Below are positions 3,435 to 25,729 of a DNA stretch of 25,928 nt, one piece after another. Each line of letters opens with the position of its first letter. Positions within the stretch are counted from its first letter, which is position 1. The position numbers and the translations under genes were made by a program. Below the pieces are notes generated by a model. It worked only from the letters and a program-made list of their open reading frames with translations, did no database searches and was not told the DNA's origin. The stretch lies in IMG/VR virus record IMGVR_UViG_3300033991_000131, positions 1 through 25,928 of that record, one strand, 5' to 3'. Origin of the DNA: a virus.

Positions 3435-3923
3435 ATGAACCAAGAAAGAAAAATTTTCATTAGAAAGGCAAGGAAAGCTACAAAAAAGAACAAAGAAAGA
3501 GAAAAAAAAGAAGAAGGAAAAAGGTATGAACGCTTTTGGGCTTTTTACATGTCCATAGCAATACTAAACGAAAAGAATTTTCTCCCCTATTCTGAGATTG
3601 AAAGAGAATTAGATTATAGCCGTTATTCCGAGAAAGACGATGTTTATAAAGGAAACAGCTATGCTCCTATTCTATCTAATTACCCTTCTCCTGAAGAAAA
3701 TTTAATAAGAAAAGAAACATATTTACTCTTATCATCAGACGCAAAATATGTAATGGGAATTCTCTGTGATAATGAGTGTTTGGAACTATTATGTCCATCT
3801 AAAAAAGATGTAAGTAGGCGACTTCTTTATCATTTCTTACGAAGGCGAAAAGAATGGGAAAATAAACGAATTGAAAAAACATTCAAAGAATTAGATAAAA
3901 CTTTTTCTTTTGATTGGGTTTGA
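3435..3923 (+). CDS. Possible sigma-70-like/HTH phage protein
   Basis: A 162-residue protein: a very basic N-terminus (~1-30), an aromatic helical middle, then NYPSPEENLIRKETYLLLSS, a buried-looking LSSDAKYVMGIL helix, and a C-terminal SKKDVSRRLLYHFLRRR...RIEKTFKEL segment. This order (SPE, helix, serine-Lys turn, final helix ending in FKEL) resembles a family of small phage proteins often labelled sigma-like, with a tail like region 4 of sigma factors. Direct promoter recognition is not demonstrated. It has its own promoter and long leader and directly precedes a 43-bp promoter repeat, so a transcriptional regulator is plausible. Confidence 0.55.
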   Translation: MNQERKIFIRKARKATKKNKEREKKEEGKRYERFWAFYMSIAILNEKNFLPYSEIERELDYSRYSEKDDVYKGNSYAPILSNYPSPEENLIRKETYLLLSSDAKYVMGILCDNECLELLCPSKKDVSRRLLYHFLRRRKEWENKRIEKTFKELDKTFSFDWV

Positions 3924-3926
3924 TTT

Positions 3927-3969
3927 TAGGAACTTTTCAAAAAATATATGTTATAATCATAGTAGAGAG
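3927..3969 (+). promoter_or_regulatory. 43-bp promoter repeat, copy A (before UvsW-like helicase)
   Basis: A 43-base stretch identical, base for base, to 20178-20220. It contains an extended -10 (TGTTATAAT, with TATAAT at 3952-3957) and a conserved upstream block AGGAACTTTTCAAAAAA, but no canonical TTGACA at 15-18 bases. Transcription would begin near 3964, only about 7 bases before the ATG at 3971. The absence of a -35 suggests an activator, an extended -10 promoter or a phage-modified polymerase. Confidence 0.7.
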
Positions 3970-3970
3970 T

Positions 3971-5335
3971 ATGAATAAAAAGGTAAAAATAAAAATCCAT
4001 AACAATGTTTGGAGCAGTGTTAAAGATCATCTTTGCAGAGAGTTACTTTATCCCTGTCTATCATATGAAAAAGAATACTGGAAACAGGAAAAATATGGTA
4101 AGAAAAGACATACTTATAGAAAGTGTCTTATTGGGCATAATGGTTATTTTCTCTCAGGGCATTTAACAAGGGTAATTAATTATTGTAATCGTAATGATAT
4201 TGAAATTGAGTGGGAAGGGGCTTTAGATTCAATAGACACAGATCGTTTTCCTTATCTAAATGGGATTACATTTCGTGAAGATCAGATGAATATGATGCTA
4301 TCCTCTATTGCAGAACAAAGAGGGGTAATTAAATGCCCTACAGGAAGTGGGAAGACTTTATTGATTCTAGGTATTATGTCTTGCTTTCCTGATAAAAGAA
4401 TATTATTTCTTTGTCATTTGAAAGAGATTTTTGATCAAACAATTGAGGCATTAGGAAGATATGGTTTTAAAGACATAGGGGTCATAGGAGATAAAGAATT
4501 TAAAATAGGGGAAAATATTTGGGTAGCAATAGTTAATTCCTATCATAATTATTATACAAAAGAAGAAGTAAATAAAAACAATTGGGATATTATTATTGTG
4601 GATGAATGTCATCATATATCAGGAACAGACAGAATGTATTATGATATTTTAACTTATCATAATGCCCCCATGCGATTAGGATTTACAGCAACTTATCCGA
4701 AGAAAGAAGAGGAGATTTTTGCTTTAGAAGGTTGCCTTGGTGAATTAATTGGAGAAGTAACAGTTAAAGAAGGAATTGAATCTGGATTTCTATCCAAACC
4801 TAAAGTAAAAATTATTTCTGTTCCTGTTGATCCTTCACTTAGACCTTTATCTTATAAAACAGCATATCAGGAAGGTATAGTAAATAATAAAATACGAAAT
4901 CGTTTAATAGCAGATACAGCAAAAAAGATTAACACAGAAGGAAAAACTGTTCTTGTTGTTGTTAAAGAGATTGAGCATGGTAATAATATCATAAAAGAAA
5001 TGGAAAAGATAGGATTATCAGCATTATATGTTAATGGACAAGATGGAAGAAAGCGTGATGAAAAACGAGAAATCCGACATGCTTTTGATAGAAAAGAAAT
5101 TATGACTGTAGTTGCTACTTGTGTCTGGAAGGAAGGGGTAAACATTCCTAATTTGGATTGTGTTTTACTTGCTGCTGGAGGGAGAAAGGTAGAGCAACAG
5201 ATTGGAAGGGGTTTTAGAAAAACAAAAACTAAAGATGAATTTCTTATTATTGATTTGTTTGATAACAGTAATAAAAGTTTTGTATCTCAATTTGGGGAAA
5301 GAATAGCTTTTTATTGTGAAATGGAGTGGTTATGA
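3971..5335 (+). CDS. UvsW-like SF2 helicase
   Basis: A 454-residue superfamily 2 DEAD/H-type ATPase. Motif Ia region TFREDQ near 100-105, Walker A PTGSGKT at 123-129, DECHH at 211-215, GFTAT near 237-241 and motif VI QQIGRGFRKT at 409-418. The ~95-residue N-terminal domain and overall size fit T4 UvsW-type helicases, which reverse forks and unwind R-loops and recombination intermediates. An upstream in-frame ATG at 3914 would place the coding sequence across the promoter at 3927-3969, so I choose 3971, right after the promoter. The stop overlaps the next start as ATGA. Matching UvsX-, UvsY- and gp32-like genes lie further along. Confidence 0.85.
   Translation: MNKKVKIKIHNNVWSSVKDHLCRELLYPCLSYEKEYWKQEKYGKKRHTYRKCLIGHNGYFLSGHLTRVINYCNRNDIEIEWEGALDSIDTDRFPYLNGITFREDQMNMMLSSIAEQRGVIKCPTGSGKTLLILGIMSCFPDKRILFLCHLKEIFDQTIEALGRYGFKDIGVIGDKEFKIGENIWVAIVNSYHNYYTKEEVNKNNWDIIIVDECHHISGTDRMYYDILTYHNAPMRLGFTATYPKKEEEIFALEGCLGELIGEVTVKEGIESGFLSKPKVKIISVPVDPSLRPLSYKTAYQEGIVNNKIRNRLIADTAKKINTEGKTVLVVVKEIEHGNNIIKEMEKIGLSALYVNGQDGRKRDEKREIRHAFDRKEIMTVVATCVWKEGVNIPNLDCVLLAAGGRKVEQQIGRGFRKTKTKDEFLIIDLFDNSNKSFVSQFGERIAFYCEMEWL
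5317..5335 (+). repeat. 19-bp direct repeat at a gene junction, copy 1
   Basis: TGAAATGGAGTGGTTATGA spans the helicase stop, a GGAG Shine-Dalgarno and the next start. It recurs with one mismatch at 5660-5678, at the next-but-one gene junction. Both upstream proteins therefore end in Glu-Trp-Leu. Confidence 0.75.
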
Positions 5336-7005: not shown

Positions 7006-7215
7006 ATGTGGACAAAGAAAAAAATCAAAAACATTTATAGTTGTTTTACAGAGAGGCAAAGATTTACATTACTTCTAATGATTATATCAGGATTTATTTT
7101 ATATCTTGATTATAGTGATTATCTTTTAATATGGTGTTTTTGTTTTATTGTTTATTTATATGCTATTATAGATTATCATGATATGTGGAATGATTTTGTT
7201 AGAAAACAAAAATGA
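7006..7215 (+). CDS. Small membrane protein, two predicted TM helices
   Basis: 69 residues: a basic N-terminus (TKKKIKN), hydrophobic helices at ~20-36 (FTLLLMIISGFILYL) and ~39-56 (YLLIWCFCFIVYLYAII), and a charged C-terminus. Positive-inside reasoning puts both ends in the cytoplasm. The start follows GAGGA by seven bases, and the stop overlaps the primase start as ATGA. Function unknown. Confidence 0.65.
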   Translation: MWTKKKIKNIYSCFTERQRFTLLLMIISGFILYLDYSDYLLIWCFCFIVYLYAIIDYHDMWNDFVRKQK

Positions 7216-8135
7216 AAACCTTAATTGACACATTTGATGTAATTGCATATTTAGACGAGCATCACATTCCTTATAGTCTAAGTGGGAAAAATACAACATC
7301 TGGATGGGTTGAGGTTAAATGTCCTTGGTGTCATGATCCATCAATGCATCTAGGAATTAACCTAACTACAAGATTAATTAATTGTTGGGTCTGTGGAGCA
7401 AAAGGGTCTATAAAAAGATTAATTCAAGAATGGGAAGGAACTTCCTATATCAGAAAAATAATAGATCAATATCAAGATAAAACTTATGAATCTTTAAAAA
7501 GAGATATTCTTATTAGACATGAAAGAAATGGAACACACACAGTTATCCCACAAGAATGCAATGATATGTTCCCATTAACTTATACTGATTATTTGAGAAA
7601 AAGGAATTTTGACCCTAATTATATTATCAAGAAATATAGATTGAAAGCTTTTCCTAATCATGGACAATTTAAATTTAGAATTTTTATTCCTGTATATATT
7701 GATAATGTTCTTGTAAATTTTACAGCTATGGATACTTCAGGAATTAAAGACAGACAGAAGTATATTCATTGTAAAAATGAAAATGCTATTATCCCAATGA
7801 AGGAATGTGTTTATAACATTGATTCAGTCAGAGATATTGCTATAATTTGTGAAGGTGTTGCCGATGTGTGGCGTGTAGGAGATGGAGCAGTAGCTACTTT
7901 TGGAGTAAATTACTCAATGTCTCAAGTAAATTTACTCATTAAAAAAAGAATACAAAAAGCTTATGTACTTTATGACAGTGATGAAGCGGGGAAAAAGAAA
8001 GGACAGCAGTTAGCAAGCGATCTGTCAGTCTTTATTCCAACTGAAATCATAGAATTAGAACAAGGTGATCCGGGGGATATGTCTGAGGAAGAAGTAAAAA
8101 AATTAAGGAGAGAAGTATTCTATGAAAAAGGATAA
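7212..8135 (+). CDS. DnaG-like primase (zinc finger plus Toprim)
   Basis: 307 residues. Residues ~36-62 form the N-terminal zinc finger: C37PWC40H, then CWVCG with C58 and C61, the CHC2-type template-reading module. The catalytic Toprim core is shown by ICEGVAD with E214, YDSDEAG with D255 and D257, and GDPGD with D286. No helicase-interaction or helicase domain follows, so it is a compact primase acting with the DnaB-like helicase at 15620. It would synthesise RNA primers for lagging-strand replication. Its start overlaps the previous stop; the Shine-Dalgarno is weak, so translation is probably coupled. Confidence 0.88.
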   Translation: MKTLIDTFDVIAYLDEHHIPYSLSGKNTTSGWVEVKCPWCHDPSMHLGINLTTRLINCWVCGAKGSIKRLIQEWEGTSYIRKIIDQYQDKTYESLKRDILIRHERNGTHTVIPQECNDMFPLTYTDYLRKRNFDPNYIIKKYRLKAFPNHGQFKFRIFIPVYIDNVLVNFTAMDTSGIKDRQKYIHCKNENAIIPMKECVYNIDSVRDIAIICEGVADVWRVGDGAVATFGVNYSMSQVNLLIKKRIQKAYVLYDSDEAGKKKGQQLASDLSVFIPTEIIELEQGDPGDMSEEEVKKLRREVFYEKG

Positions 8136-9832: not shown

Positions 9833-9908
9833 TGCGGTGTAGCTCAGATGGAAGAGCAACTGGCTGTTAACCAGAGGGTCACAGGTTCGATCCCTGTCAC
9901 CGCAGCCA
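9833..9908 (+). tRNA. tRNA-Asn (anticodon GTT), CCA encoded
   Basis: A full cloverleaf: acceptor TGCGGTG (9833-9839) pairs with CACCGCA (9898-9904); D-stem GCTC/GAGC (9842-9845/9854-9857); anticodon stem CTGG/CCAG with loop CTGTTAA, anticodon GTT at 9866-9868; T-stem ACAGG/CCTGT with loop TTCGATC. Discriminator G9905 is followed by genomic CCA. The top anticodon-stem pair is an A-A mismatch (9859/9875). It decodes AAC/AAU and begins six bases after the relic gene's stop. Confidence 0.95.
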
Positions 9909-10233: not shown

Positions 10234-11514
10234 ATGGATCAAGAAAACCATAAATTCAAATTAAAGAATGTTAATATGGATTACGCTTTAGCAAAAGCTC
10301 ATAATCTAAATTTGACGGATATAGCAGTCTTAAACACCATAACCTTACTTGATAATAAAGACCATTGTTTTGCAAGTAATGGTTATTTAGCAGATGTGTT
10401 GGAGGTGTCTGAAAGAACAGTTTCTGCAAGTATTAACAAATTAATAGAAGAAGGGATTATTTCAGTAATGAATTTTAATGGAAGAAAGAGAACTATGAAA
10501 TCAAACTATAGAAGTGTTCTTCAGAACAGACTAGAAGAAAGCTGCGAGGCAGGATCGCAGGAATCTTCTAGTCAGCATAGAGAAAGTCTTCCAGAAATAT
10601 ATACAAATATATATGTACAAGAAGATAAAGAAAAGAAGATAAAAGAAAATAACTGTGCAGATGAATCTGCACACCCTTTTCCTTCTTTATTCTCTTCTGA
10701 AAAGGATAAGAAAGAAGTAATCAAACATTGTTTTATCCCAAAGAAGCTACAACCTATCTTTGATTATTGGGAAAGGAAACCTAATGATCTCCAAAAACAT
10801 AAACGCAATACCAAAGTTCTTAAAGAATCAATAAGCAGATTAGAAAGCCTTATGGAAGGAACCTTGTTACCGAGAGAGGATTATCCAGAGTGGCACGATC
10901 ATAAATTTACTGAGGAGGAAATAAAGCAATCCATAGATAATTTTGCTTTGGCTGCTCATGATCATAATTATGATCCACAAAATGATAGTGTAAAGAAATA
11001 TATGAGAAAGATGTATATAGATAGGTTTTTATGGAATCCTGATGCAAAGAAGTGGGAAAAGAGTCTTTTTATAAAGTATCTTAAAAAACCTCGATGCCTG
11101 AATGTGGAAGATACATCCCCAAATCTTACAAAGAAGATTAAGAGATGGTATGTTGCAAATGTCCTTGGTGGTATTGAACCTGAATTTAGTGCAGAAGATA
11201 TGAATTGCTTTAAATATGCTTCGCAAAGACTGAGTGACTTTTATAAAAAACATAAACATAAATTTGCATTAGGAATGAATGATAGTTTAATGGATTTTGT
11301 TGATGATCTCTGTGATGCAATTAGAAAAGATGTAGATGATAATTTTACTAAAGTAACACCGAAGTGGTTCTGCTCCGATTACACATTTAATAAAAGACTT
11401 CCTACTTATCTGTATGATCAGGCAGCAATTAGAGATGAATACTATGAAGATTTTGGTATAAAAAATAATGATGATGGTAATTGGACCCCACCAAGTATTT
11501 ACGATGAGGAATGA
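10234..11514 (+). CDS. Winged-helix replication-organizer-like protein
   Basis: 426 residues. Residues ~22-90 form a winged-helix domain like those at the N-terminus of phage replication initiators: LNLTDIAVLNTITLL, then an HTH ASNGYLADVLEVSERTVSAS with recognition helix ASINKLIEEGIISV. Residues ~97-165 are a polar, low-complexity linker (Ser/Glu/Lys-rich), and ~170-426 a helical, unrecognised domain. Lambda O and related organizers bind origin repeats lying inside their own gene; the linker DNA here carries a cluster of perfect palindromes. The likely job is origin recognition and loading of the DnaB-like helicase at 15620. A transcription factor is the alternative. Confidence 0.65.
   Translation: MDQENHKFKLKNVNMDYALAKAHNLNLTDIAVLNTITLLDNKDHCFASNGYLADVLEVSERTVSASINKLIEEGIISVMNFNGRKRTMKSNYRSVLQNRLEESCEAGSQESSSQHRESLPEIYTNIYVQEDKEKKIKENNCADESAHPFPSLFSSEKDKKEVIKHCFIPKKLQPIFDYWERKPNDLQKHKRNTKVLKESISRLESLMEGTLLPREDYPEWHDHKFTEEEIKQSIDNFALAAHDHNYDPQNDSVKKYMRKMYIDRFLWNPDAKKWEKSLFIKYLKKPRCLNVEDTSPNLTKKIKRWYVANVLGGIEPEFSAEDMNCFKYASQRLSDFYKKHKHKFALGMNDSLMDFVDDLCDAIRKDVDDNFTKVTPKWFCSDYTFNKRLPTYLYDQAAIRDEYYEDFGIKNNDDGNWTPPSIYDEE
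10516..10672 (+). other. Candidate replication origin: palindrome cluster in linker-coding DNA
   Basis: Three perfect inverted repeats: GTTCT-TC-AGAAC (10516-10527); a compound hairpin with outer stem GACTAGAAGA/TCTTCTAGTC (10529-10538/10564-10573) and inner stem CTGCGA/TCGCAG (10542-10547/10555-10560); and GTGCAGAT-GA-ATCTGCAC (10655-10672). Between the second and third is a very AT-rich stretch (about 10585-10654) including TATATA and A-rich purine tracts, a possible unwinding element. In lambda-type phages the origin lies in the same place, in the initiator's linker. No clear tandem iterons are seen, so the origin call is inference. Confidence 0.45.
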
Positions 11515-15359: not shown

Positions 15360-15620
15360 ATGCCATATATTAAAATGGAAGAAAGAGACAGATTAGATAG
15401 GACTTCTTTGGAAGAGTTAGGCAAACATATAAAAACAGTGGGGGAACTAACTTATTGTCTTTATAAGTTGTTGTTGGATTATCGAAAATGGGAGCATCCT
15501 TCTTATGCTTTGTTATCAGAATCTATGGCAGCAGCAGAATGTGCTAAGTTGGAATTCTATCATCGGTGGCTTAGAAACTATGAAGAAATGAAAATTGAAG
15601 AAAATGGGGATATATTATAA
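15360..15620 (+). CDS. DUF6899-type conserved protein
   Basis: 86 residues with the fixed ends of this family: MPYIKMEERDRLD at the N-terminus and AAAECAKLEFYHRWL then a KIEENGDI C-terminus. The family is widespread in bacteria and phages and has no known function. Start follows a G-run (AGGGGGT). It ends with TAATG overlap into the replicative helicase, a position that suggests co-expression with replication proteins. Confidence 0.8.
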   Translation: MPYIKMEERDRLDRTSLEELGKHIKTVGELTYCLYKLLLDYRKWEHPSYALLSESMAAAECAKLEFYHRWLRNYEEMKIEENGDIL

Positions 15621-17194
15621 TGGCATATGTACGGAGAAGTATTAGCACAAATATAGAAAAACAAATTCTTACAGGAATGATTCTATCGAATAGATATTTA
15701 AAAGATGTTTATCTTATGATAGATAGAAACTACTTTCAAAGTGAATATGCAAAAAAATTAGTAGATTGGGTGCTTTTCTATTTTAGGAAATATGAGAAAG
15801 CTCCATGTGAGGATATAGAAAGTATTTATTTGGAACGAGAAAGAGAATTAAAAGAAGATGAAGCTGAAATAATGAAATCTTTTCTTGACTCTTTATTGAA
15901 GGAGATTAAAAACAAAAACAAATTTAATATAGAATATCTATTAGACAGAACCATTGAATATTTTCGTCAAAGAGCTTTAATTTTAACAATAGAAAATATA
16001 AAGATATTAGTAGATAATAATAAACTGGATGATGCTGAAAAAATAATTAAGGATTATAAAAAAGTATCAAAAGCAATATCGAAATGGATAAACCCTTTTG
16101 ATGAAAAACAAATAAAAAGACTTTATGAAACTAAATTTATTAAACATGATGAAGCTGAAAATCCTGATACACTATTTAAGCTCCAAGGAAAATTGGGGTC
16201 ATTGTTGGGGTGGTTTAAACGTGGGTGGTTGTGTGCTTTTATGGGTCCAGTAAAAAGAGGAAAAACATGGTTTCTACAGGAAGGGGCTATTCAGGCTTAT
16301 TTGTGTAGGTTAAGGGTGGTTTTTATTACTCTTGAAATGAGTGATGAAGAGATGAAGAAAAGATTTATTGATCGCTTATTTGCTTATACATCTGTAAATA
16401 CAAAAGATCAACATTTAATATATCCTTGTTTTGATTGTGTAAAAAATCAGACAGGGGAATGTAGAAAACCACAAAGAACAAATAAAATAGCATTGTATAA
16501 TGAAGAAAGGAAAATACCTGAATATAATCTTGAGATGGAATATCGTCCGTGTGTTGCTTGTCGAGGGGTATCAAAAGATTATGAAGCTGCTACATGGTTT
16601 GAATGGATTAATCGTGAAGAAGCAGAATTAAAAAAGCTGATTGATGGAATGAAAGGATTTGAAATGTATTTTGGGGATAGGATGAGAATAATTGCCTATC
16701 CAGAATATTCGGCAAATATATCTCAAATAAAAAAGGATTTAGATGATCTTGAATATATAGATGATTTTGTTCCTGATGTAGTAATTATTGATTATGCTGA
16801 TATTCTTGCTCCAGAGGATAAACGTGTTCAAGGTAGGGATAGGATAGATGAAACATGGAAGACATTAAAAAACCTATCATCTACTAGGCATTGTCTTATT
16901 TTAACAGCTACACAAGCAAATAAGAAAACTTTGGAAAAGAAAAATGTAAAAGCAATAGACACATCAGAGGATTATAGGAAAATGGCACATGCTGATGCAA
17001 TATTTTCATTAAGTCAGACAGATAATGAAAAGAAAAAAGGAATTATGAGAGTAGGGATTGTTATTCATCGTCATCAGGAGTTTGACCAACTAAACCAAGT
17101 AACAGTATTACAGAATCTTAATATGGGACAACCTGTATTGGATTCTGAATTTAAAAAGATGGATAAAGAAGAAGATGATAAGAGTAAAAATTAA
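15620..17194 (+). CDS. DnaB-like replicative helicase with a zinc-binding insertion
   Basis: 524 residues. Residues 1-~150 resemble the helical DnaB N-terminal domain (NIEKQILTGMI). The RecA-fold motor starts ~190: Walker A G209PVKRGKT216, catalytic Glu in FITLEM (E239), Walker B VVIIDYAD with D391, sensor-like TATQAN near 435, and a late basic IVIHRHQ near 490, where an arginine finger would lie. Inserted between Walker A and B is C270FDC273, C281 and C311VAC314, spaced as one or two zinc sites. It should unwind the fork 5' to 3' with the primase at 7212. It overlaps the next gene by 20 bases. Confidence 0.87.
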   Translation: MAYVRRSISTNIEKQILTGMILSNRYLKDVYLMIDRNYFQSEYAKKLVDWVLFYFRKYEKAPCEDIESIYLERERELKEDEAEIMKSFLDSLLKEIKNKNKFNIEYLLDRTIEYFRQRALILTIENIKILVDNNKLDDAEKIIKDYKKVSKAISKWINPFDEKQIKRLYETKFIKHDEAENPDTLFKLQGKLGSLLGWFKRGWLCAFMGPVKRGKTWFLQEGAIQAYLCRLRVVFITLEMSDEEMKKRFIDRLFAYTSVNTKDQHLIYPCFDCVKNQTGECRKPQRTNKIALYNEERKIPEYNLEMEYRPCVACRGVSKDYEAATWFEWINREEAELKKLIDGMKGFEMYFGDRMRIIAYPEYSANISQIKKDLDDLEYIDDFVPDVVIIDYADILAPEDKRVQGRDRIDETWKTLKNLSSTRHCLILTATQANKKTLEKKNVKAIDTSEDYRKMAHADAIFSLSQTDNEKKKGIMRVGIVIHRHQEFDQLNQVTVLQNLNMGQPVLDSEFKKMDKEEDDKSKN

Positions 17195-17474: not shown

Positions 17475-17632
17475 AAGAAAACTTTACTTGGAAAGGCAAA
17501 CTTTTAAATGATTATAGTAAAGAGGAATTGATAAATATAATTGTGTTTATGGAAGAATATTATGAAAACAGGATTCAAGAAAAACAACATCAAATAGAAG
17601 TGATAAGAGAGTTAAGAAAGGGAAGAGAATGA
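17471..17632 (+). CDS. Small helical protein
   Basis: 53 residues from ATG 17471, which follows GGGAGAGAAG and overlaps the previous stop. The sequence WKGKLLNDYSKEELINIIVF then a charged helix (YYENRIQEKQHQIEVIRELR) suggests a short coiled coil. An upstream TTG at 17423 is in frame but has no ribosome-binding site. Its stop overlaps the polymerase start. Confidence 0.6.
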   Translation: MKENFTWKGKLLNDYSKEELINIIVFMEEYYENRIQEKQHQIEVIRELRKGRE

Positions 17633-20163
17633 CCTTAGATGAAAATTGTGTAAAATGTGGTTTGTATAAAAACAAAGAACTTAAATCTCCTTTTATGAAA
17701 TATTCAGGAGAAGGAAGAAAGAAAATACTAATTCTTGCAGAAGCACCGGGGGCAGTCGAAGATGCTAAAGGCACACAATTGGTTGGGGAGGCAGGACAAC
17801 TATTAAGAGATAAATTAACAGATGTTAATATTGATTTGGATTTTGATTGTTGGAAGGAGAACGCTATTTGTTGCAGACCACCAAAGAATAGAACCCCATC
17901 TAGGAAAGAGATTAATTGTTGTCGGCATAGGTTGGCAGAAACAATAAAAAAACTAAAACCTGATTTTATATGGGTATTTGGAAATGTTGCTCTTGAAGCG
18001 TTGTTATATGATAGATTTAGTGCAGAAGCAATAAATATTTCATCATGGAGAGGGCATTGTTTTCCTCATAAAGAAAGTGGGGCGTGGGTGATTCCTATGT
18101 TTCATCCTTCTTATCTTCTTCAGAGACAAGACCCATTATTGACAAGAATATTTGAGAATGATTTGAAATATGCTGTTTCTTGTTTAAAAAGAAAACGACC
18201 TATATTTTCTGATGATGAAAATAAAATTATGATCTTGAAGGATCATGAAGATATTATAGAGTTGTTAAACACAATCTTAGAAGAAAAGCCAATTATGGTT
18301 TATGATTATGAGACTTCTGGATTAAAACCATATAAGAGTGGACATAAAATTTATACTATTGGTGTGTCTTTTATTGGGTGTGAACAAGCATATTCTTTTC
18401 CTTTTCAACATTCTTATTGGACTTATGAGGAATATGAAAAGATTGAAAAGCTATGGAATAGGATATTGAGGGATAAAGAGATAAAGAAGATAGCTCAGAA
18501 TATTAAATTTGAGCATATTTGGACAAAAGTTATATTAGGAATAGATGTAGAATCATGGCATCATGATACTATGCTTGCTACTCATATTTTGGATTCAAGA
18601 CGAAAGATTACAGGTTTGAAAATTCAGGCTTATCTGCGATGGGGGGTTGATGATTGGGCAAAAGAAATAAAAAAATATATAGAAGAAGATGAAGAGGGTT
18701 TTAATAAACTTCATTTAGTTGAGTTAGATAAACTTCTTCTTTATAATGGTCTCGATGCTCTTTATGAAAATAAACTCTACTGTGAACAAACAAAAGAACT
18801 ATCAAGAAAAAAAGAATTAAAAAAGATATATGAGTTGTTCCATAATGGGATTCTTTCTTTTGCTGACACGGAATATGATGGTATATTAGTAGATAAAAAT
18901 TATTATGATTCTGTGGAAAAAGAAATTGAGAAAGATATTCAGGAGCTTTATAAAAAACTTGCAAATAGTGATGAAGCAAAAAAATTTGAAACTATTATAG
19001 GCAGACCTGTTGATATAGGAAAAAAGGATGATGTTAAGATTGCAACAAAAGATTTATCTGTTCTTTTTTATAATGTTTTAGGTTTTAAGGCTACTAAGTT
19101 TACGGCAAAAGGGAATAAACCTTCAATTGATGAAGAAGCTCTGAGTGAATTTGATTCTGATTTTGCTAGAGATTTATTAAAATTAAGAAAACTATTTAAA
19201 ATACGAAACACTTATTTAGCTCAAATGAAGAGAGAGATTTGTGATTCAAAAATTCATCCTTCTTTTGACCTTCATATTCCAGAAACAGGGAGATCAAGTT
19301 CATCCAGACCAAATTTACATAATATACCAAAACGAGAAGACATAGCAAGGGATATAGTCAGAAAAGGGATTATACCATCACTTAATAATAAATTATTAGA
19401 AGTGGATTATAAGACAATTGAAGTGCGTATCATGGCATGTTACACACATGATCCTGTATTAATTAAATATATTAATGATCCAACTACAGATATGCATAGA
19501 GATCAGGCAATGACTATATTTATGTTAGATGAAAATCAGGTTACAGAACCAATAAGACAGATTGGAAAGAACGGTTTTGTGTTCCCTGAATGGTATGGGG
19601 ATTACTATAAAGCCTGTGCTAAGTCATGTTGGAAAGAAGGGATAATATTAAAAACAAAAGATGATATACTGATAAAAGACCATTTATCAAAATATAATGT
19701 TAAAAGTTATGTTCAATTTGAAGAACATATGAAACAAGTAGAAAAGGCTTTTTGGGATTTGTTTTGTGTTACAAAAGAATGGAGAGACTATGAAATTGAT
19801 TTTTATGGAAGACATGGTTATGTAGATAGTTTCTTTGGTTTTAGAAGGAATGGTTATCTTAGGAGAAATCAGATTTGTAATGCTCCAATTCAAGGGAGTG
19901 CTTTTCATTGTTTATTGTGGTCATATATAAAGCTTAATAGGATAAGAAAAGAAGAAGGATGGAAATCAAAGATTATTCTGCAAGTCCATGATAATATTGT
20001 GTTTGATCTCGATCTTACTGAAGAAAAACACATAAAAGCTATTGTTGAAAAGGTAATGTGTAAAGATATTGTTGAAGAACATCCGTGGCTTATTGTTCCA
20101 TTGGAAGTGAAAATGGAAGAATCATTTGCTAATGGTTCATGGGCAGATGTGAAAAAACCATGA
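17629..20163 (+). CDS. Family A DNA polymerase fused to a family 4-type uracil-DNA glycosylase
   Basis: 844 residues in three parts. 1-~185: Fe-S uracil-DNA glycosylase with C7xxC10, C81/82 and C97/98 ligands, LAEAPG (36-41), CRPPKNRTP and HPSYLL (159-164). ~200-385: proofreading exonuclease with D226/E228 (VYDYETSGL), N291...E295 (normally Asp) and Y372xxxD376. ~400-844: polymerase with motif A EVDYKTIEVR (D593), finger motif with R643, K647 and Y656-G657, NAPIQGSA, and motif C VHDN (D788); the usual following Glu is Asn. No 5'-3' exonuclease domain; that is a separate gene at 24860. It is the replicative polymerase, probably coupled to uracil detection or excision. Confidence 0.93.
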   Translation: MTLDENCVKCGLYKNKELKSPFMKYSGEGRKKILILAEAPGAVEDAKGTQLVGEAGQLLRDKLTDVNIDLDFDCWKENAICCRPPKNRTPSRKEINCCRHRLAETIKKLKPDFIWVFGNVALEALLYDRFSAEAINISSWRGHCFPHKESGAWVIPMFHPSYLLQRQDPLLTRIFENDLKYAVSCLKRKRPIFSDDENKIMILKDHEDIIELLNTILEEKPIMVYDYETSGLKPYKSGHKIYTIGVSFIGCEQAYSFPFQHSYWTYEEYEKIEKLWNRILRDKEIKKIAQNIKFEHIWTKVILGIDVESWHHDTMLATHILDSRRKITGLKIQAYLRWGVDDWAKEIKKYIEEDEEGFNKLHLVELDKLLLYNGLDALYENKLYCEQTKELSRKKELKKIYELFHNGILSFADTEYDGILVDKNYYDSVEKEIEKDIQELYKKLANSDEAKKFETIIGRPVDIGKKDDVKIATKDLSVLFYNVLGFKATKFTAKGNKPSIDEEALSEFDSDFARDLLKLRKLFKIRNTYLAQMKREICDSKIHPSFDLHIPETGRSSSSRPNLHNIPKREDIARDIVRKGIIPSLNNKLLEVDYKTIEVRIMACYTHDPVLIKYINDPTTDMHRDQAMTIFMLDENQVTEPIRQIGKNGFVFPEWYGDYYKACAKSCWKEGIILKTKDDILIKDHLSKYNVKSYVQFEEHMKQVEKAFWDLFCVTKEWRDYEIDFYGRHGYVDSFFGFRRNGYLRRNQICNAPIQGSAFHCLLWSYIKLNRIRKEEGWKSKIILQVHDNIVFDLDLTEEKHIKAIVEKVMCKDIVEEHPWLIVPLEVKMEESFANGSWADVKKP

Positions 20164-23525: not shown

Positions 23526-24617
23526 ATGGGAAGACATAAGAAGATTAAAGAGATTATTGATCAGGTTGAAGACCATCATATGAAAGACAAAACTTCCTTA
23601 GTAAAGAAAGGCAGGGTGCTTATTCCAACAGGGAGCACTCTGCTTAATTTATCCTTGTCTGATTCTGCATTAGGAGGTTATGTTCCCGGCTCTATTGTAA
23701 ATGTAGTTGGTGATAGCTCCGCAGGAAAAACATTCTTATTGTGGACTGCTTTTGCTGAAATTAAACATCATCCTGATTTTAAAGATTATCGTTGTATATA
23801 TGATGAGCCTGAACATGCTTTCTATATGCATATTCCAAAATTATTTAGTATGTCTGAGGATATGGTAGAAACTAATATTCAATCGAGAACAATTCAAGAA
23901 TGGTATCAAAATATAATGAAGGTTATTAGGGATGATGAGCCTTTTATTTATGGTTTGGATTCATTTGATTCTTTATCCTCAATTGAGGAACATGAAAGAG
24001 CAGAGAAATTGATAAAATCAGGTGAAGATACAGGTTCTTATAAAACTGAGAAAGCTAGAGTATCTGGTGAGATATTAAGAATGATTACTGATGATTTGGA
24101 GAAGACTAGATCAATAGTAATTGTTATTTCGCAAACGAGGGATAAGATTGGGGCGATGTTTGGAGAGAAGAAAACACGGAGTGGTGGTTATGCTCTTCGG
24201 TTTTATTCTACTCATGAGTATTGGCTTTCTGTTCTTGGTCATGAGAAAAGAAGGGAAAGAGAAGTTGGTGTTAGTATTAGAGCAAAAGTAAAGAAAAACA
24301 AATTAACAGGAAAACTCCGTGAAATAGAGTTTCCAATTTATTATGATTATGGTGTTGATGATATTGGTTCTATGATTGATTTTCTTATTTCTGAACAAGT
24401 ATGGAAGAAGAAACCCGGTGGAATTATTGATTCAGGTGGGGTTTTTCCAGAATCACGAATTACTGATTTGATTGCATATGTTGAGAAAGAAAATTTGGAG
24501 AAAAAGCTGATTGAGAAGGTGGAATCTGTGTGGAATGATATTGAAAAAAGTGTAGTTACTACTAGAAAACCAAAGTATTCTAAAGTAAAAGTAGAGGAAG
24601 AAAAGAATGAGGAATGA
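23526..24617 (+). CDS. RecA/UvsX-like recombinase
   Basis: 363 residues. Residues ~30-60 lead into Walker A G62DSSAGKT69; IYDEPEHAF supplies the catalytic Glu (E94); Walker B is IYGLDSFDSL with D145; VIVISQTRDKIGAMFG near 200-215 is the sensor/L2-like DNA-binding region. The ordering and size match RecA-superfamily recombinases of phages, which form filaments on ssDNA and exchange strands. The C-terminus is rich in Lys and Glu. With the UvsY-like, gp32-like and UvsW-like proteins it forms a T4-type recombination set. The start follows closely on the 23-residue peptide gene. Confidence 0.85.
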   Translation: MGRHKKIKEIIDQVEDHHMKDKTSLVKKGRVLIPTGSTLLNLSLSDSALGGYVPGSIVNVVGDSSAGKTFLLWTAFAEIKHHPDFKDYRCIYDEPEHAFYMHIPKLFSMSEDMVETNIQSRTIQEWYQNIMKVIRDDEPFIYGLDSFDSLSSIEEHERAEKLIKSGEDTGSYKTEKARVSGEILRMITDDLEKTRSIVIVISQTRDKIGAMFGEKKTRSGGYALRFYSTHEYWLSVLGHEKRREREVGVSIRAKVKKNKLTGKLREIEFPIYYDYGVDDIGSMIDFLISEQVWKKKPGGIIDSGGVFPESRITDLIAYVEKENLEKKLIEKVESVWNDIEKSVVTTRKPKYSKVKVEEEKNEE

Positions 24618-24859: not shown

Positions 24860-25729
24860 GTGGATGTAATTATTGTTGATTCTAATTGTCTATGTCATAT
24901 AGCAAAACATTCTGTAGGTAAATTAAGTTATGATAATAAGATGACAGGAGTTATTTTTGGTTTTCTGAATACTATATTTAGGATTGCTATGAAATTTAAA
25001 ACAAACAAGTTTGTATTTGTTTGGGATTCAAGAAAATCAGTTAGGAAGAAAATAGAAAAAACATATAAAGAACACAGGAAAAAAGACGTTACAAGTGAAG
25101 ACAAAATGTTATTTAGACAGTTTTCAGATATACGACAAATTGTTTTAGATAAGTTTGGTTTTAGAAATAGTGTTATTGAAACAGGATATGAATCAGATGA
25201 TTTGATAGCTTCAATTGTTATGAATTCTTCTGGTAATAAATTTATAGTTGTGACAACTGATAGTGATTTATATCAGCTTCTTGATTATTGTGATATTTAT
25301 AATCCAATAAAAAAGAAAGTAATTACAAAAGAAACATTCAAGGAAGAACATCATATTGACCCTGATAAATGGGCAATGGTGAAGGCAATAGCTGGTTGTA
25401 ATTCTGATAATGTCAGAGGAGTTCAGGGGATTGGTGAAAAGACGGCTATTCGTTATCTGAAAGAAGAATTAAATATAAAATCAAAAGTTATTAAAAAGAT
25501 TGAGAGTCCTGAAGGACAGACAAAAATCATAAAAAATATGGGCCTTGTTTCTTTACCAATTGAAGGCACAAAAAAAATAGTAATAGATGATGGTTCTTTT
25601 AAAGATGAAGTTTTTTATGCTGATGATTTTATTGATATTTGTTTAAAATATGGTTTTGAGAGTTTTATGAAAGAGTTAACAAAATGGAAAGAAACATTTA
25701 AAATGATACAAAGAATTCAGGAGGTTTAA
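24860..25729 (+). CDS. 5'-3' exonuclease / flap endonuclease (T5 D15, PolI-N type)
   Basis: 289 residues from GTG 24860 (AAGGAG six bases upstream). Acidic metal ligands: D7 (VDSN), D56 (VWDSR), the ESDD cluster 111-114 and TDSD 134-136. The basic arch KTYKEHRKK (~67-75) and the helix-three-turn-helix NSDNVRGVQGIGEKTA (181-196) match the family; the usual Asp of GDxSDN is Cys180. It removes RNA primers and flaps, replacing the 5'-3' exonuclease domain missing from the polymerase at 17629. The recombinase, polymerase and helicase neighbours fit this job. Confidence 0.88.
   Translation: MDVIIVDSNCLCHIAKHSVGKLSYDNKMTGVIFGFLNTIFRIAMKFKTNKFVFVWDSRKSVRKKIEKTYKEHRKKDVTSEDKMLFRQFSDIRQIVLDKFGFRNSVIETGYESDDLIASIVMNSSGNKFIVVTTDSDLYQLLDYCDIYNPIKKKVITKETFKEEHHIDPDKWAMVKAIAGCNSDNVRGVQGIGEKTAIRYLKEELNIKSKVIKKIESPEGQTKIIKNMGLVSLPIEGTKKIVIDDGSFKDEVFYADDFIDICLKYGFESFMKELTKWKETFKMIQRIQEV

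Follow-up and report, generated by a model that had tools for sequence, protein, structure and literature searches.

A probable lambda-style replication origin in the linker-coding part of an initiator gene of an uncultured phage

The DNA analyzed here, called the window below, is the whole stretch of 25,928 bases at positions 1-25,928 of the IMG/VR record IMGVR_UViG_3300033991_000131, which derives from an uncultured phage. Its gene for an O-like replication initiator carries, between the parts that encode two protein domains, a group of palindromes and an AT-rich tract, and this region, from about 10516 to 10673, is probably the theta-replication origin of the phage, embedded in the linker-coding part of the initiator gene in the style of phage lambda. 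The gene, its domains and the DNA elements within it are listed here, with lengths in nucleotides (nt) or base pairs (bp) and with the basis of each assignment in brackets.

10234..11514, plus strand: gene for the replication initiator (O-like), 426 amino acids, which hosts the candidate origin (PHROG, Pfam)
10282..10503, plus strand: winged-helix DNA-binding domain, codons 17-90, presumed to bind the origin (HTH_36, AlphaFold, Foldseek)
10516..10527, no strand assigned: short palindrome GTTCTTCAGAAC with 5-bp arms and the spacer TC (read in the sequence; stem 1-4/9-12 in the fold)
10529..10573, no strand assigned: compound inverted repeat of 45 nt, a candidate initiator-binding element (sequence reading, fold, synonymous shuffles)
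10564..10698, plus strand: disordered linker, codons 111-155 (AlphaFold)
10587..10594, plus strand: third TCTTCYAG half-site, which possibly forms a degenerate iteron with those at 10531-10538 (minus strand) and 10564-10571 (plus strand) (word clustering)
10594..10650, plus strand: AT-rich tract with a purine-rich top strand, a candidate DNA unwinding element (stability, purine content, tandem repeats)
10654..10673, no strand assigned: downstream hairpin TGTGCAGAT-GA-ATCTGCACA with 9-bp arms, a single copy in the window (sequence reading, fold)
10720..11469, plus strand: helical C-terminal domain, about codons 163-412, presumed to recruit the helicase (relatives, AlphaFold)

In PHROG, the initiator hits replication initiation and O-like families with a best E-value of 2e-16, the matches running through its winged-helix half, and Pfam recognizes HTH_36 at residues 24-76 (E 1.7e-9). 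In the AlphaFold model, built with 29 homologues, the winged helix is composed of helices at residues 17-22, 27-39, 49-56 and 60-72 and strands at 76-81 and 85-90, and its Foldseek matches are winged-helix proteins of the MarR/ArsR type and also viral helix-turn-helix and replication proteins. PHROG, Pfam and AlphaFold agree with the first-pass annotation, which had described the gene as winged-helix initiator-like. A helix at residues 92-109 stands between the winged helix and the disordered part, where the predicted local distance difference test (pLDDT) score is below 50 (residues 111-155). The C-terminal domain is all-helical and is modeled confidently from residue 173 to 407, with a pLDDT of about 90. 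Its residues 163-391 are 29% identical to the relatives G002 and G003, which possess only this C-terminal part, and also match the relative G005; they have no match in the PDB and define a family located beside a DnaB-like helicase.

All three palindromes, including the compound hairpin with its stems of 10 and 6 bp, were found where they had been annotated, and each is hyphenated by a spacer. The outer arms of the compound hairpin, GACTAGAAGA and TCTTCTAGTC, pair over 10 bp, and the inner arms, CTGCGA at 10542-10547 and TCGCAG at 10555-10560, pair over 6 bp; on either side, 3 unpaired nt separate the two stems. The AT-rich stretch is equally real: in stability, the tract from 10594 falls below 99.3% of all 57-nt stretches in the window, its 35-nt purine content falls within the top 0.5% of the window, and it contains the tandem repeats AAATATATAC (1.9 copies) and AAGAAGATAAAAGAA (2.1 copies) as well as an imperfect AT palindrome at 10602-10617. 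The claim that these elements lie precisely in the linker-coding part holds, subject to a minor adjustment. The repeats lie within codons 95-147, and the AT tract and the downstream hairpin (codons 141-147) lie inside the disordered part, but the compound hairpin, which corresponds to codons 99-114, overlaps the helix at residues 92-109.

The palindromes are individually near chance and significant as a cluster. Exact 10-bp stems number 2 against about 1.1 expected, and exact 9-bp stems 9 against 4.9, as judged from a Markov sequence of 26 kilobases (kb) with loops of up to 30 nt. The DNA fold of 10516-10700, on the other hand, has a z-score of -6.26, which none of 200 dinucleotide shuffles equaled, and the segment 10481-10640 ranks second in structure among 323 segments of the stretch. 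When synonymous codons were shuffled with the encoded protein and the codons kept fixed, the folding energy of codons 81-120 (-20.5 kcal/mol against a shuffle mean of -10.7) was matched by only 1 of 2,000 shuffles. The same test was applied as a control to lambda gene O, in which the origin consists of four hyphenated inverted repeats of 18 bp that adjoin an AT-rich tract of 38-39 bp (PMC6022878, PMC7466680, PMC3349717). Its minimum z-score, -3.65 at codons 131-170, covers iterons, the AT tract and the inverted repeat that follows, the annotated iterons being at codons 117-145. The mapped lambda origin behaves like the candidate, and the relatives described below carry repeats in the same part of the gene, in accordance with the annotated lambda-type placement.

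Close relatives of the window were found neither in INPHARED, at the DNA and protein levels, nor in IMG/VR when a single initiator or helicase sequence was used for the search. Distant kin were reached via the family A DNA polymerase (PolA); in their records, the initiator's C-terminal half lies between the primase and the DnaB-like helicase. With an alignment of the DnaB-like helicases as the query, 80 IMG/VR loci and 10 loci of genome contigs were recovered, from which an iterated profile retrieved about 50 initiator genes adjoining the helicase; 28 of these, including that of the window, are full length and non-redundant. Apart from the linker, the relative G005 (L015:2913-3619) has two extra small winged-helix open reading frames (ORFs) in tandem immediately upstream of the initiator, and L035 and L073 have one each, which would fit a duplication of the winged helix into a separate gene.

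For each 40-codon stretch of the 28 genes, the DNA fold energy was compared with those of synonymous-codon shuffles made within the stretch. Linker stretches have a mean z-score of -1.40, with 27% below -2.5, against -0.25 and 7% for winged-helix stretches and -0.17 and 3% for C-terminal stretches, and the difference between linker and domains is consistent across the genes (paired Wilcoxon p 3e-7). Inverted repeats of 8-mers in the linkers number 183 where 21.7 are expected, and direct repeats of 11-mers 961 where 385 are expected, while the domain-coding parts are at or close to expectation. The direct repeats show an upstream bias relative to the AT tract (16 genes versus 5, p 0.027). A strict order in which the hairpin follows the tract is not significant across the family (11 genes against 7, p 0.48), and hairpins occur on both sides. 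Repeats in the linker-coding part are thus a family trait under selection at the DNA level. The palindromes of the relatives, whose conservation had been proposed as a check, gave a divided answer: their sequences have turned over totally, but their presence and location are retained.

Such complete turnover could suggest mobile palindromic elements or functionless by-products of recombination, tolerated solely in a disordered linker, where insertions do little harm. This explanation appears very unlikely, because the palindromes of the window are single copy and the density of perfect stems of 10 bp or more is 2.06 per kb in the linkers, about 27 times that of the remaining DNA of the loci, both coding and non-coding (0.077 per kb; 0.07 in the rest of the same genes); nor does it predict that direct repeats and an AT tract should accompany the stems. 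Another explanation is that the hairpins act in the transcript, either by causing translational pauses or as terminators in the sense or antisense direction. The RNA fold of the region is indeed strong (z -6.35), the downstream hairpin is followed by T-rich bottom-strand DNA in a manner resembling an antisense terminator, and an A-rich 5' flank accompanies 12 of the 33 hairpins of the family. The excess of structure is, however, equal on both strands (z -3.32 for sense and -3.23 for antisense, p 0.57), which points to a signal at the DNA level and not to messenger RNA structure, and direct repeats, which do not fold on themselves, are enriched too, so that a role in the transcript is also highly improbable. 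Sense-strand terminators in particular were rejected, since none of the 33 family hairpins is followed by a sense-strand T tail.

Several linkers contain plain lambda-like iterons. That of L071 has GATCGAAACGATC-ATGGGGT in tandem, which is unmistakable, and further examples are GGGGTTGATAAAATTATCAA, present twice in L047, and GTAACAAAAATGTTAC in L094. The linkers also show a surplus that lambda iterons alone leave unanswered. Hairpins with 2-4-nt loops and perfect stems of 8-19 bp were seen 25 times against about 3 expected from synonymous shuffles, whereas inverted repeats with long spacers (13-30 nt) are merely about twofold enriched. Part of this surplus is accounted for by lambda-type iterons whose 4-nt spacer is rich in A, but the hairpins with 2-3-nt loops are not, and the hairpin apex TCTAAAGA recurs in six distant members. 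One speculative explanation, to which we give a rather low probability, is that the linker DNA carries lambda-type sites together with hairpins selected as hairpins, which could be extruded or exposed as single strands when the origin melts and might signal loading or priming to the phage's own helicase and primase. If this were true, it would be a hairpin-assisted theta origin, unlike the textbook scheme of iterons plus an AT tract.

We consider the region around 10516-10673 to be a probable origin because its repeats and its unstable AT tract exceed what the encoded protein requires. A winged-helix initiator gene as host, repeats between its domains and an AT-rich tract, all characteristic of lambda-type embedded origins, are present together. 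The protein sequence of the linker is free to drift, and the DNA beneath it can therefore serve as an origin. In the mechanism that we envisage, dimers of the winged-helix domain would occupy the palindromic sites that lie left of the AT tract, the resulting initiator complex would melt the tract at 10594-10650, and the C-terminal domain would recruit the phage's own DnaB-like helicase, followed by the primase and the polymerase. The palindromes could instead be an autoregulatory operator, through which the initiator, or a different regulator, would govern transcription of the initiator's own operon, given that winged-helix proteins typically bind palindromes and that the fold neighbors of the domain are regulators of the MarR/ArsR type. 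We regard an operator in place of an origin as unlikely, as the sites lie about 280-440 nt into the coding region, away from the promoter, where no promoter-like excess was found, and as it leaves unexplained both the adjoining AT-rich tract and the repeated placement in linker DNA in 28 genes, although an origin and an operator may coincide.

Some observations weigh against assigning the origin to this region. The GC skew, which had been suggested as a check, did not confirm it: the skew is positive throughout the window, and neither there nor in the longer relatives G003, G005 and G004 does it lastingly change sign around the gene, where it shows just a local weakening. GC skew is uninformative here, neither supporting nor excluding an origin. 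Within the window's own linker, the clustering of the TCTTCYAG half-sites (p 0.12, synonymous shuffles) and the direct repeats (p 0.06) are not significant, and a few full-length members (L033, L072) lack the structure signal. Strict kinship with lambda O is not evident either: PHROG O-like profiles match the initiator at 1e-9, but comparing a profile with the sequence of lambda O alone gives no significant similarity. Finally, the corresponding gene of G002/G003, L036 and L065 lacks the winged helix. In G002/G003, the gene starts after the linker, and the primase and the C-terminal ORF are separated by about 500 nt that lack a convincing gene and contain an AT/purine tract and inverted repeats, while L065 has a 226-nt gap with two hairpins of 9 bp and 3-nt loops. 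These gaps are only suggestive of an origin position kept between the primase and the helicase-recruiting domain even though the winged-helix coding part has been lost or moved.

The candidate origin belongs to a replication module in which the primase, initiator, DnaB-like helicase and PolA genes follow one another in this order. The other genes of the module are listed below.

3914-5335: helicase
7212..8135, plus strand: DnaG-like primase (PHROG DNA primase, E 1e-28; Toprim in Pfam), 34% identical to the G002 primase, which likewise sits upstream of the initiator
15620..17194, plus strand: DnaB-like replicative helicase (PHROG DnaB-like, E 1.5e-52), for which relatives were found
17629..20163, plus strand: family A DNA polymerase (PolA type) with an N-terminal uracil-DNA glycosylase (UDG) domain (Pfam DNA_pol_A, E 5e-51; UDG, E 4e-20)
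23526-24617: RecA-like gene
24860-25729: 5'-3' exonuclease

The PolA relatives L002-L004 align with this UDG-PolA fusion across nearly the whole length, the UDG part included. In the family of the DnaB-like helicase, a conserved cysteine cluster, DCxxxQ...C and CxxCR, is inserted in the ATPase domain and is possibly a zinc site. The ORF at 12268-12888 matches a PHROG of the HslV-type peptidase family (E 1.6e-12), which is unusual for a replication module. The ORF at 1663-2922 matches PHROG 1314, labeled "HNH endonuclease", and Pfam assigns it to DUF2201, a putative metallopeptidase, and to a VWA-like protein; its interpretation as an HNH or guide-RNA nuclease was consequently dropped, and the PHROG is likely misnamed. 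Of all 160-nt stretches of the window, 1601-1760 is the most structured (z -5.6); it spans the end of the ORF at 990-1670 and the start of that at 1663-2922 and contains a long hairpin, GGTAGCTCAAG...CTTGAGCTATCC, followed by TTTTTTT, which is terminator-like yet lies within the start of a coding region. Between the tRNA-Asn gene (9833-9905), which it directly follows, and the initiator operon, the segment 9917-9997 folds into an RNA-like three-way junction with the closing stem GATAAGGGCT...AGCCCTTATC and two inner hairpins (RNA fold z -3.7, 0 of 200 shuffles); it has no Rfam match at the gathering threshold, the tRNA being the sole match in an Rfam scan of the window.

The analysis assigns the probable origin of this uncultured phage to one short stretch and extends the assignment to a metagenomic phage family with its own DnaB-like helicase, and the family-wide pattern raises the case above a single curiosity. 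Even between deeply diverged phages, and without a conserved base, origins in initiator linkers would be recognizable from DNA structure and repeats beyond the needs of the protein, so that an excess of both in initiator linkers offers a usable method of finding origins.

The arrangement itself is already known from lambda, and this phage appears to be a solid new example, with the same placement seen statistically in distant relatives. Like lambda and the lambdoid phages P27 and 933W, the window has hyphenated inverted-repeat sites beside an AT-rich tract with a purine-rich top strand (PMC6022878, PMC7466680). An inverted repeat past the AT tract, which in lambda is GTCAGAG...CTCTGAC, is also common to both, as is a positive signal in the synonymous-shuffle test. 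Lambda differs in having four clear 18-bp iterons, whereas the window has degenerate half-sites at best and a larger compound palindrome; in addition, the phage of the window encodes its own DnaB-like helicase and primase, and the initiator proteins are only remotely related. In rep of the staphylococcal plasmid pSK41 (RepA_N family), the Rep boxes are likewise central in the gene and the protein segment encoded by the origin is a linker, but this is a plasmid initiator of another family, described with Rep boxes and not long hairpins (PMC5703833). The DnaD-like and O-like replisome organizers (PHROGs 2880, 678, 270, 391 and 186) share with the window's initiator the N-terminal winged-helix domain and the context of a replication module, whereas the C-terminal helical domain of the latter, with no counterpart in the PDB, forms a family of its own beside the DnaB-like helicase.
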